A stretch of DNA of 44,096 bases from Gammaproteobacteria bacterium. GTDB taxonomy: Bacteria > Pseudomonadota > Gammaproteobacteria > Steroidobacterales > Woeseiaceae. Within the stretch, counting starts at the first letter, position 1. Every line of letters begins with the position of its first letter. The translations under genes and the position numbers were made by a program. Location of the stretch: assembly GCA_029865385.1 (NCBI GenBank), contig JAOUGX010000020.1, positions 1 through 44,096 on the forward strand, given 5' to 3'. The notes under the pieces are model-generated. The model was not told where the DNA came from. It ran no database searches and was given only the letters and a program-made list of their open reading frames with translations. Below are positions 5,817 through 21,783 of this stretch, piece by piece.

Positions 5817-5930
5817 GGCATGCCCCAAAAAATGAAAAAATGGGGCCGGATACATTTTAAAAAAAGGGGCCGGATACATTTTCCCAGCATTGGAAAATGT
5901 ATCCGGCCCCTTTTTTTGTCAGGGCATGCC
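5817..5930. repeat. Palindromic repeat element, copy 1 (two direct plus one inverted 17-mer)
   Basis: The word GGGGCCGGATACATTTT occurs at 5842-5858 and 5866-5882, and its exact reverse complement at 5894-5910. The two direct copies are 24 bases apart, start to start. With flanking A7 and T7 the second copy and the inverted copy make a perfect 26-base-pair hairpin (5859-5884 with 5892-5917, 7-base loop). An outer inverted pair GGCATGCCC / GGGCATGCC lies at 5817-5825 and 5922-5930, the latter inside the last codons of the convergent gene. The run of T after the stem on either strand suggests it also acts as a bidirectional terminator. The same design recurs near 14.6 kb. It resembles REP-type elements mobilised by RAYT transposases, by inference only. 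Confidence 0.9.
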
Positions 5931-8027
5931 GCGCGACAGCAGTCGCGTGCCGGCAATTTCGCTCCTCAGAATGGAAGAGACTTTCTCGGCCTGCATCGGC
6001 CGGCTGATGAGGAAGCCCTGCGCGAGGTCGCAGTTACAGCTGCGCAGGAACTCGAACTGCGTAATGGTCTCCACGCCCTCGGCGGCAACTTCGATATTCA
6101 ATCCACGTGCCATCGCGATGGCAGCACGCACTATGCGCTGGTGACTGTCGTTGAATTCAACGTCCTGAATCAGCGACTGGTCGAGCACGAAGCTGTCGAT
6201 AACGCCTGTATCGAGCGAGCTGAATGAAATGTCCCGGGTACCGAAATGATCCAGTGACAACCGAACACCCAGTTTGCGCAGTCCCTGCAACGTTTCCAGT
6301 TGCGAGGAGCGATCGTCTACCAGCGTGCCGTCGCTGATCTCGAATTCGATGCAGCCGGGATCGAGCATGGTGTCGCCCAGTGCTTGCCTGACGGATTCGA
6401 CCAGCCGACCGTGGAGCAGTTGCTGTGGTGACAGGTTGATCGCCATCGCAAGGTCAGGAAGTTCGAAATGGCGCTGCCATGAAGCAAGCTGGCGACAGGC
6501 CGTCTCGATAATCCATTCACCGGTCGAATGAATGAGTCCGCTGGATTCCAGGATGCTGAGGAAGCGCGCCGGCGGCAATAACCCGAATCGCGGGTGTTGC
6601 CATCGAACCAGCGCTTCGAGACCGATCAGGCGCCCGGAATTGACGTCTATGCGTGGCTGGTAATGCAGCACGAATTCGTTACGGACCAGCGCATGACGCA
6701 ATCCGATCTCCAACTCCTCGTGCTGTTCGAGTTTCTTGTTCAGCGAGCTCGAGTAGTACTGAAAGCGATTGCCGCCACGCTTCTTGGCCTGGTACATCGC
6801 AAGATCGGCCGCCTTGATCAGGCGCTCCGCCTGGTCACCTGCGCCCGGATGAATGGCGATACCCACGCTGGGCGTCGCATAGACCTCGCTGTTGCCGATC
6901 TCGTATTTCTCGGACAAGACCAGCACCAGCTTTTGCGCTGCTGCTGCTGCATTCGGCGAATCGCCGAAGTCCTCCAGGCAGACGACGAATTCGTCGCCGC
7001 CCCAGCGACCGGAGAAATCACCTATGCGCAGGTTCTTCGTCAGCCGGTCGGCGACCTGCTTCAATAGCTGATCGCCGATGTCATGGCCCAGTGTGTCGTT
7101 GACCGACTTGAATCGATCGAGATCGATAAATAGTACGGCGATCGGCCTGCCATTGCGTTGGCTGCGACCTATGGCCTTTTCCAGGTGCCGCGTGAACAGG
7201 CGGCGATTGGGCAATAGCGTCAGGTCGTCATACTGTGCGCGCTTTTCAAGCTCCACGGTGCGGCGGACTATGTCCGTTACATCGCGAAAGGTAATAACGC
7301 CGCCGACCAGCGACCGGCTGCTGTCGTACAGGCCCTGACCATTGATGCTGAGAACGACATCGATCTGGCCCTGCATCTTGTAAACGGCTGTCTGGTTCGA
7401 AAACTTCTCGCCGGTGCGCGCTTTGTACAAAGGCCTCTGGTCGGGTTCGATGCGTTCGACGCCGTCGGCCGTGTAACTACAGAATGAGCGCGCCCACTCG
7501 GCGTCCGGCAGTATCCGTGACGACAGTCCGAGCATCGAGCGCGCCGCAGGATTGATATCCAGCACATGACCCTGCTGATCGACGACCATGACACCGTCAT
7601 TGATGCTGCTGAGAATCGAAAGGACGGAACTGTCGGTGTCCGATAACCTCGCCAGCAGCCGGTGACGCTGGATAGCGTGATCGAAAATGGCTTCCTGCTC
7701 GAGTTCTCCGGTATCGTCGATGCATATACTGGCCTGTGCGCCTGCCCTGACTGCGGCAACGCCACGATGTTCTTTCTCGCGTGTCGTCAATGCGACCACC
7801 GGGTAAAGTCGCAGGGAATTCAGGAGTGACGGCAAGGTTTGCCCCGACTGCACCAGCGCGGGTCCTACCTCGATGAGGATCAGGTCGATGCGATGGCCGG
7901 CCGGGTCGGGAACACTGAATTGCTCCGATTGGGCGAGGTTTTCGCAGACTGGCAGCGTCTTAAGTTTTTCCAGGTACCCGGCTGCGAACTCGCCTCGTCC
8001 GAGGTACAGAATAGAATGCCCACCCAT
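5919..8027 (-). CDS. PAS-GGDEF-EAL protein with degenerate EAL domain
   Basis: Cytoplasmic 702-residue cyclic-di-GMP protein. Residues 1-125 look like a receiver fold without a normal phospho-Asp (LIEVGP instead of an LLD-type strand). A PAS domain spans about 130-255, GGDEF about 265-425 and EAL about 435-690. GGDEF is intact at 343-347, with an RxxD inhibitory site (RIGD, 334-337) five residues before it, so diguanylate cyclase activity with product feedback is likely. The EAL triplet (471-473), Asn531, Glu650 and Gln670 are kept. The metal-binding DD pair is DH (593-594), and the conserved Lys of the KID motif is Val614. Phosphodiesterase activity is therefore doubtful, and the domain may be a sensor. 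It is divergent from the sigma gene. Confidence 0.93.
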   Translation of the reverse strand: MGGHSILYLGRGEFAAGYLEKLKTLPVCENLAQSEQFSVPDPAGHRIDLILIEVGPALVQSGQTLPSLLNSLRLYPVVALTTREKEHRGVAAVRAGAQASICIDDTGELEQEAIFDHAIQRHRLLARLSDTDSSVLSILSSINDGVMVVDQQGHVLDINPAARSMLGLSSRILPDAEWARSFCSYTADGVERIEPDQRPLYKARTGEKFSNQTAVYKMQGQIDVVLSINGQGLYDSSRSLVGGVITFRDVTDIVRRTVELEKRAQYDDLTLLPNRRLFTRHLEKAIGRSQRNGRPIAVLFIDLDRFKSVNDTLGHDIGDQLLKQVADRLTKNLRIGDFSGRWGGDEFVVCLEDFGDSPNAAAAAQKLVLVLSEKYEIGNSEVYATPSVGIAIHPGAGDQAERLIKAADLAMYQAKKRGGNRFQYYSSSLNKKLEQHEELEIGLRHALVRNEFVLHYQPRIDVNSGRLIGLEALVRWQHPRFGLLPPARFLSILESSGLIHSTGEWIIETACRQLASWQRHFELPDLAMAINLSPQQLLHGRLVESVRQALGDTMLDPGCIEFEISDGTLVDDRSSQLETLQGLRKLGVRLSLDHFGTRDISFSSLDTGVIDSFVLDQSLIQDVEFNDSHQRIVRAAIAMARGLNIEVAAEGVETITQFEFLRSCNCDLAQGFLISRPMQAEKVSSILRSEIAGTRLLSRGMP

Positions 8028-14303: not shown

Positions 14304-14570
14304 ATGGCTCGGAAAGTACGGTGTGCATTGCTGGGAAAAGAGGGAGACGGCCTGGACTATGCGCCGTACCCGGGCCCGCTGGGCCAGCGTGTCTATGACA
14401 GCATCTCTAAAGAAGGATGGCAGCGCTGGGTAGCGCACCAGACGATGCTGATTAACGAATACCGGCTGACACCGATCGAACCGGAAGCCCGTAAATTCCT
14501 GGAAACGGAGATGGAGAAATTCTTCTTCGGCGGTGGTTCGGAAAAGCCGAAGGAATACGTCCCCAAGTAG
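14304..14570 (+). CDS. yggX: Fe(2+)-trafficking protein YggX
   Basis: An 88-residue protein with the YggX landmarks: early Cys7 in [44 protein letters not shown] and [12 protein letters not shown]. The family protects iron-sulfur enzymes from oxidative damage and appears to handle labile iron. The ATG at 14304 is 2 bases after the mutY stop; an earlier TTG at 14295 would overlap mutY and is less likely. Its last two codons and stop lie inside the palindromic repeat element, so the C-terminal PK may have been set by that insertion. Confidence 0.95.
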
Positions 14571-14666
14571 AAAAGAGAAAAAGGGGCCGGATACATTTTA
14601 TAAAAAGGGGCCGGATACATTTTAATAATAAAATGTATCCGGCCCCTTTTTCTCTTTTCTACTTGG
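14563..14666. repeat. Palindromic repeat element, copy 2, extending into both flanking genes
   Basis: GGGGCCGGATACATTTT occurs at 14583-14599 and 14607-14623, with its reverse complement at 14630-14646. The direct copies are again 24 bases apart, as at 5.85 kb. Bases 14563-14600 are the exact reverse complement of 14629-14666, a perfect 38-base inverted repeat that includes the stop codons of both yggX and the convergent Lrp gene. A second pairing (14602-14624 with 14629-14651, 4-base loop) uses the inner copy instead. The inner hairpin is followed by a T run on both strands, so it can serve as a shared terminator. Confidence 0.92.
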
Positions 14667-15126
14667 TTGCGAGCGGCAATTCCGTTGTCTTCATCACGGT
14701 GCGTATCGCAACGCTTGAATTGACTCGCGCGACCCCCGGCAGTCGTGTAAGCGCCTCGTTGTGCAATCGTTCGAAATCGGCCATGTCGGAAACGACGACT
14801 CGCAGCAGGTAGTCGAACTCACCGGTCATCAGGTAACACTCCATGATTTCGGGAATGCCCTGTACGGCTTCCTCGAATGCCGCGAGCTCGCTCTGTTCCT
14901 CACGCCGCAACGCGATGTGTACGAACACCGTGCCACCGACGCCGGCTTTCTTCTGGTTCAGGAGCGCCACGTATTGCTCGATGAGGCCTTCTTGCTCGAG
15001 AACGCGGACTCGCCGCAGGCAGGCGGATTCGGACAGGTTGACTCGGGCCGCCAGCTGCACGTTGCTGATACGCCCGTCCTGCTGCAGCGCCCTGAGGATG
15101 GCCTTGTCGTAACGGTCCAGCTGCAC
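14659..15126 (-). CDS. Lrp/AsnC-family transcriptional regulator
   Basis: A 155-residue DNA-binding protein of normal Lrp length. The N-terminal winged helix-turn-helix (about 1-60: LDRYDKAILRALQQDGRISNVQLAARVNLSESACLRRVRVLEQEGLI) is followed by the RAM ligand-binding domain with ECYLMTGEFDYLLRVVVSDMADFERL. It is divergent from ald with a 143-base gap. Lrp-type activators next to ald are common and respond to alanine or other amino acids, so it probably controls ald. Its last codons (TK and stop) lie within the mirrored repeat shared with yggX. Confidence 0.9.
   Translation of the reverse strand: MQLDRYDKAILRALQQDGRISNVQLAARVNLSESACLRRVRVLEQEGLIEQYVALLNQKKAGVGGTVFVHIALRREEQSELAAFEEAVQGIPEIMECYLMTGEFDYLLRVVVSDMADFERLHNEALTRLPGVARVNSSVAIRTVMKTTELPLATK

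Positions 15127-21707: not shown

Positions 21708-21783
<76 letters not shown>

Follow-up and report, generated by a model that had tools for sequence, protein, structure and literature searches.

Within the window analysed (the whole stretch of DNA, 44,096 nucleotides in length), yggX and a gene for an Lrp/AsnC-family regulator (lrp) converge, and the last codons and stops of both genes lie within an inverted repeat (Table 1). The two arms of 39 nt each are 100% complementary and are separated by 26 nt. The initial annotation had described, under the name of a mirror repeat, a perfect 38-base inverted repeat over both gene ends; the perfect pairing and the coverage of codons and stops are borne out, whereas the length is 39 nt and the structure is strictly an inverted repeat. 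The yggX gene ends in CCC AAG TAG and lrp, on the minus strand, in ACC AAG TAG, with its stop at 14659–14661. As had been noted, both genes terminate in the same eight bases, CCAAGTAG, which are followed by AAAAGAGAAAAAGGGGCC; the lrp end whose origin is at issue in this genome is ACCAAGTAGAAAAGAG. The repeat contains a 23-nt unit, with direct copies at 14578 and 14602 and one inverted copy at 14629–14651, and the reported two direct and one inverted copies of a 17-mer were found at the positions given in Table 1. The element at this junction is referred to as W2. When the window was searched against Rfam with gathering scores, a tRNA at 21708–21780 was the sole match, so no listed RNA family is present at the yggX–lrp site.

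Table 1. Features of the yggX–lrp junction and a second family member in the window
Feature	Position	Strand	Basis
yggX, Fe(2+)-trafficking / oxidative damage protection protein, end inside left arm	14304..14570	+	NF003817 130.7 bits (cut-off 74); PF04362
Left arm of perfect 39-nt inverted repeat: yggX end (CCAAGTAG), A/G-rich flank, repeat copy 1	14563..14601	+	complementarity
Repeat core copy 1, GGGGCCGGATACATTTT	14583..14599	+	17-mer match
Repeat core copy 2, tandem direct, start-to-start spacing 24	14607..14623	+	17-mer match
Right arm, inverted copy over lrp end	14628..14666	-	complementarity
Repeat core copy 3, inverted	14630..14646	-	17-mer match
Lrp/AsnC-family regulator, last codons and stop inside right arm	14659..15126	-	PF01037 over cut-off; PRK11169 143.9 bits, under cut-off 233
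Second family member, two + copies and one - copy	5842..5910	.	17-mer match

The 110-nt stretch 14560–14669 folds at -66 kcal/mol as RNA and at -45 kcal/mol as DNA, and none of 200 shuffled sequences folded as well in either form (z values of -11.66 and -14.66, respectively). Two alternative folds had been proposed for the element. For the 104-nt repeat as RNA, the long form reaches -65.0 kcal/mol, and a forced alternative, in which the inner direct copy pairs with the inverted copy, reaches -56.3 kcal/mol; either fold is thus possible, with the long form favoured. A single repeat unit is not palindromic by itself: the unit and its complement fold at -0.2 and 0 kcal/mol, no better than shuffles.

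A genome-wide search with the 17-mer GGGGCCGGATACATTTT, allowing up to one mismatch, revealed 46 forward and 53 reverse copies (99 in all), and none for the reversed-pattern control. The copies fall at 40 sites, with both termini of the transposase element counted as a single site. The family unit of about 22 nt, AAAAAGGGGCCGGATACATTTT, occurs in inverted pairs or triplets, with a + copy first and a - copy last at 34 of the 40 sites (11 +-, 11 +--, 8 ++-, 2 ++-- and 2 +---). Copies mostly have an A-run at the outer edge and ATTTT at the inner edge. The loops of these 34 elements measure 14–49 nt and are all different, implying that the inverted pairs are not simply copied whole. In the second element of the window (5842–5910), GGCATGCCC is mirrored a few bases beyond the A/T runs. 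Any match to the 17-mer was found in five of 59 other genomes, and matches are numerous (17) only in G053, which belongs to a different family of the same order. The other two members of the genus, G001 and G002, are both incomplete assemblies (G001 about 67% complete) and contain no copy.

Three genes of this genome encode PF01797 proteins. One of them, at G000:C171:2414-2737, lies inside 47-nt repeats that are 98% complementary, each consisting of two tandem units of the family of W2. Its product scores 44.7 bits with PF01797 (cut-off 23) and 71.3 bits, under the cut-off of 80, with the REP-associated model NF047646. A protein of G053 that is 58.6% identical to this transposase sits between copies of the same motif. 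Because the gene is flanked by units of the family, and its G053 homologue likewise, the family is presumably moved by the C171 single-strand (Y1) transposase. The two further Y1 transposase genes (L092 and L093) are adjoined by other repeats (GTGCCGGATCTATTT and TGTAGGAGCC), which suggests that at least three transposase–repeat families coexist in the genome.

The core of W2 belongs to a new family that falls among the known RAYT/TIRYT-type repeats, with full membership in neither REPINs nor TIRtrons. The accounts of TIR-associated tyrosine transposases (TIRYTs), probably subclass 2.1 of the Y1 superfamily, describe a RAYT-like gene between inverted terminal repeats in the TIRtron, with scattered copies, many of them dimers or clusters, that start with GGGG; a GGGGWSAS motif is given for some or the majority of the published TIRs (PMC3733652, PMC6006769). 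Here too a transposase gene lies between terminal inverted repeats, and copies are scattered singly, as dimers or as clusters. By contrast, GGGGCCGG departs from GGGGWSAS at two of eight positions, whereas GGGGTCAG, from the repeat family of G002, fits it; and Pfam detects no C-terminal helix-turn-helix of subclass 2.1 in the C171 protein, giving only Y1_Tnp at E values up to 0.01. REPINs are described as inverted hairpin pairs with a cognate RAYT and a spacer less conserved than the repeats, and compensatory changes on both sides of their hairpins have been reported and read as selection (PMC3116915). The present family resembles REPINs and BIMEs in its short inverted pairs that form a hairpin, the cognate Y1 transposase gene that lies between copies of the repeat, the variable spacer and the compensatory changes. 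It differs in that GTAG is not next to the hairpin foot (the reverse strand of the unit reads GTATCC), in that the single unit does not fold alone, and in its uniformly different loops. REPs are reported to lie mostly between unidirectional and convergent genes (PMC3733652).

The yggX–lrp junction of G001 lacks the element and has 22 nt between the genes. There, yggX ends in CCCAAATAAGAAAAGATT and lrp in GTGAAATAGAGGAAGG, so that the two genes of this element-free relative do not share the common ending. The yggX end of the present genome matches that of G001 (GTCCCCAAGT-AGAAAAGA versus GTCCCCAAATAAGAAAAGA). When lrp ends were ranked against the G001 yggX end (82 of 110 lrp loci, the 28 most distant being left out), the lrp end found here ranked first among 66 distinct ends, with a score of 10 against 9 for the next. 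Because the yggX end of G001 resembles both gene ends here, the lrp end was probably overwritten from yggX, a comparison with a thin margin (10 versus 9) and a single element-free relative.

The argument of the initial annotation that unrelated genes would not share such an ending by chance proved too strong. A Lys codon followed by a stop ends both genes in all three genomes of the genus (AAATAA/AAATAG in G001 and AAATAA/AAATAA in G002), and the shared CCAAGTAG is thus less surprising than claimed; Lys-terminal ends account for five of 66 distinct lrp ends (three from this genus) and for eight of 45 yggX ends. As judged from these endings, much of the eight-base identity is older than the W2 element. 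The special feature of this genome is the identical CC, AAG, TAG and AAAAGAG, not the Lys-stop itself. The proposal that one gene end was rewritten from the other therefore stands as far as the G001 ends point to an lrp overwritten from yggX, but it has to allow for identity that predates the element and for a flank that is perhaps partly element-borne.

In G002, the yggX–lrp junction carries a repeat of a different family, with AAATAAAATC on both sides. The same AAATAAAATC borders the G002 repeat at one further place (L147), which implies that part of the G002 flank may belong to the repeat. The loop of G002 was considered as native DNA, since TTCCCGCG is common to G002 and G001, and the shared stretch is too short for such a claim. 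Several relatives have other hairpin-like repeats directly at the yggX stop (loci L112, L190, L194, L195, L199, L202 and L204), some of them enclosing the stop codon; in L204, a direct copy of the yggX end CGCCCGAATAAATGGGGTC is found again some 1 kb downstream, where it adjoins the end of lrp.

Mirrored flanks, whose recurrence had been put forward as a check, are found across the family. In 34 elements, the exact mirror match running outward from the repeats averages 5.85 nt within elements and 2.93 nt between elements, and none of 20000 permutations was as high. Without W2, C153 and C155e, the values are 4.45 versus 2.93 nt (1 of 20000), and 1.48 versus 0.75 nt when the A/T run is also dropped (38 of 20000). 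Running inward, the match is 5.88 nt within and 4.16 nt between elements (0 of 20000). A looser gapped flank test of the same 34 elements gave a weak signal (377 of 20000 permutations as high) compared with the clearer anchored exact tests. Six of the 40 sites were left out of these tests: C57 (contig end), C171a (transposase gene), and C155d, C169, C135 and the C155 copy at 7442, which have no + to - pair.

Among the 34 elements, only W2 has a 15-nt mirror that is free of repeat pieces; the mirrored junctions of C153 and C155e consist of truncated repeat copies. In a comparison of the 70-nt flanks of 38 family sites, with GGGGCC pieces masked and the terminal A/T run dropped, the 15-nt match between the W2 flanks ranks second among 2850 flank pairs, behind 36 nt for C57/C129b and ahead of 11 nt for the third pair. 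The sites of the first pair (L066 and L088, one of them at a contig end) have a longer common stretch beside the repeat, 36 nt exact and more, which is perhaps part of a larger element.

At C67b, both convergent frames end in CAG TAA TAAAGGGGCC. The ligase gene there ends in RDQ-stop in G002 as well, so its Gln-stop is native there; hemE ends in Gln in four of 27 relatives with a preserved end (YHQ-stop in three), and its end is cut off in G001 and G002. A second rewritten gene end at C67b is possible, the hemE Gln-stop being either native or copied. Searches for empty sites of other elements gave no match for W1 in G001 and one-sided matches on two contigs in G002; the C153 site of G001 bears another hairpin, of GTAG type by its letters; the left 980 bases of C129a have no DNA match in G001 or G002; and in G002 the C67b site is interrupted by contig ends and holds a repeat of the G002 type.

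The explanation that we consider rather likely is that the repeat landed in the gap between yggX and lrp, and that a hairpin-driven template switch then wrote the yggX end, reversed, over the lrp end. A RAYT/TIRYT-type repeat, carried by a Y1 transposase encoded elsewhere in the genome, would have inserted in the short gap, and its hairpin would make replication switch templates. The nascent strand, beyond the yggX end and the left copy, would fold back and copy itself, and would rejoin the correct template at the lrp end, which already had a Lys codon and stop in common with the yggX end. The yggX end would thereby be written in reverse over the lrp end, producing the 39-bp stem. The mirror of W2 ends near the Lys-stop common to both genes in G001, as predicted for a return to the right template through microhomology.

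In E. coli, it is established that template switching can bring imperfect inverted repeats closer to perfection (PMC7202029). The proposed event resembles quasipalindrome template-switch mutation, in which an imperfect inverted repeat becomes perfect via nascent-strand copying (PMC7202029, PMC8794818, PMC8604942), and differs from it in being apparently seeded by a mobile hairpin and in reaching into the ends of two genes. The repeat itself, the family to which it belongs, a transposase gene flanked by units of that family, the element-free junction of G001 and the mirroring within elements are seen directly in the sequences. We infer from them that the C171 transposase moves the family and that a template switch took place, as well as when it occurred and that it ran from yggX to lrp. 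Switching across a hairpin, suggested from the outset, would give the best fit to the within-element mirroring.

The flanks could instead have come with the element: a mobile unit with longer terminal repeats that include TAGAAAAGAGAAAAA would have supplied both stop codons on landing. The sequences at issue are CCAAGTAGAAAAGAG and TAGAAAAGAG, the latter at the gene end of C129a. In the 3.9-Mb genome, TAGAAAAGAGAAAA has three exact matches, one in each flank of W2 and one in the left flank of C129a (G000:C129:26459-26472), where its TAG stops a 319-aa open frame; with one mismatch it occurs at three further places (reversed control, 1). C136 has TAAGAAAAGAGAGG at the stop of a frame, and AAATAAAATC lies just outside the repeats of the different G002 family at yggX, at lrp and at L147. 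Template switching at W2 alone is insufficient for the third exact TAGAAAAGAGAAAA, for which the explanation would be a daughter element that took its flank along, an end borne by the element, or chance. Against a unit with such ends, the element-free G001 already has TAAGAAAAGA 3' of yggX, and the right side of C129a is devoid of the outer sequence. Among the 25 longest of the 2850 flank matches, this sequence is otherwise unshared, C129a (10 nt) and C136 (9 nt) apart, and unrelated flanks also reach 10–11 nt. An element-borne origin of both stop codons, which retains some support from the copy at C129a, is considered unlikely.

A role in termination could also account for symmetry at this position, if the flank was palindromic before the insertion or was shaped by selection for a stem terminating both transcripts. 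At 22 of 37 sites, mechanically called open frames of at least 90 codons terminate close to the element from both directions, an apparently convergent setting that would suit a bidirectional terminator. The empty site of G001, the one relative available, is weakly quasi-palindromic (local score 6), and on the + strand one stem is terminator-like in three nested readings (3 found versus 0.8 in shuffles). The same pattern scan listed no terminator-like site on the - strand at the stem. Termination, moreover, needs no symmetry over the codons of both genes; the perfect 15-nt flank far exceeds the symmetry of G001, and the inner loops are mirrored as well. Judging from its T/A tracts, the hairpin stem may also end transcription, but a palindromic terminator as the origin of the mirrored gene ends is improbable. 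A chance likeness between two Lys-stop ends rich in purines, or a chimera formed by fold-back during metagenome assembly, would be in keeping with the Lys-stop of both genes throughout the genus, the A/G-rich flank and the record of the sister genomes as metagenome assemblies, but is very improbable given a 15-nt match versus 11 nt for unrelated flanks, mirroring that runs family-wide, and AAATAAAATC on both sides of another repeat in the separate assembly G002, where the flank is perhaps repeat-borne.

Truncated copies accompany the family. By pattern, 21 of 22 lie 16–69 nt from a full copy, and 76 of the 77 places with AAAAAGGGGCC are at listed family sites. Among 30 partial matches no more than 110 nt from full copies, which include some unrelated matches or full copies with a changed G number, 13 stop after GGGGCC and six one base later, and none is of the suffix type. 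Such a recurring breakpoint may reflect a nick or the end of a hairpin. More speculatively, transposase-linked repeats might grow where they land, acquiring inverted partners and truncated tandem copies by template switching with a break at GGGGCC^GGATAC, while convergent gene ends would be recoded and the termini would evolve in concert with the hairpin.

At its core, W2 is thus unremarkable, since the repeat represents a new family of hairpin elements of a familiar type; what is unusual is the footprint along its borders. A literature search of titles and the starts of abstracts, with limited journal coverage, found no description of mobile hairpins that rewrite neighbouring gene ends. If the proposed switch is correct, mobile hairpins would seed template switches that copy the end of one gene onto its neighbour, changing C-terminal codons and stops. 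The finding also bears on the origin of inverted repeat pairs, whose loops differ in every element and yet whose arms agree better within a pair than between pairs. The yggX–lrp junction would then be an example, on a small scale, of gene endings remodelled by repeat DNA.
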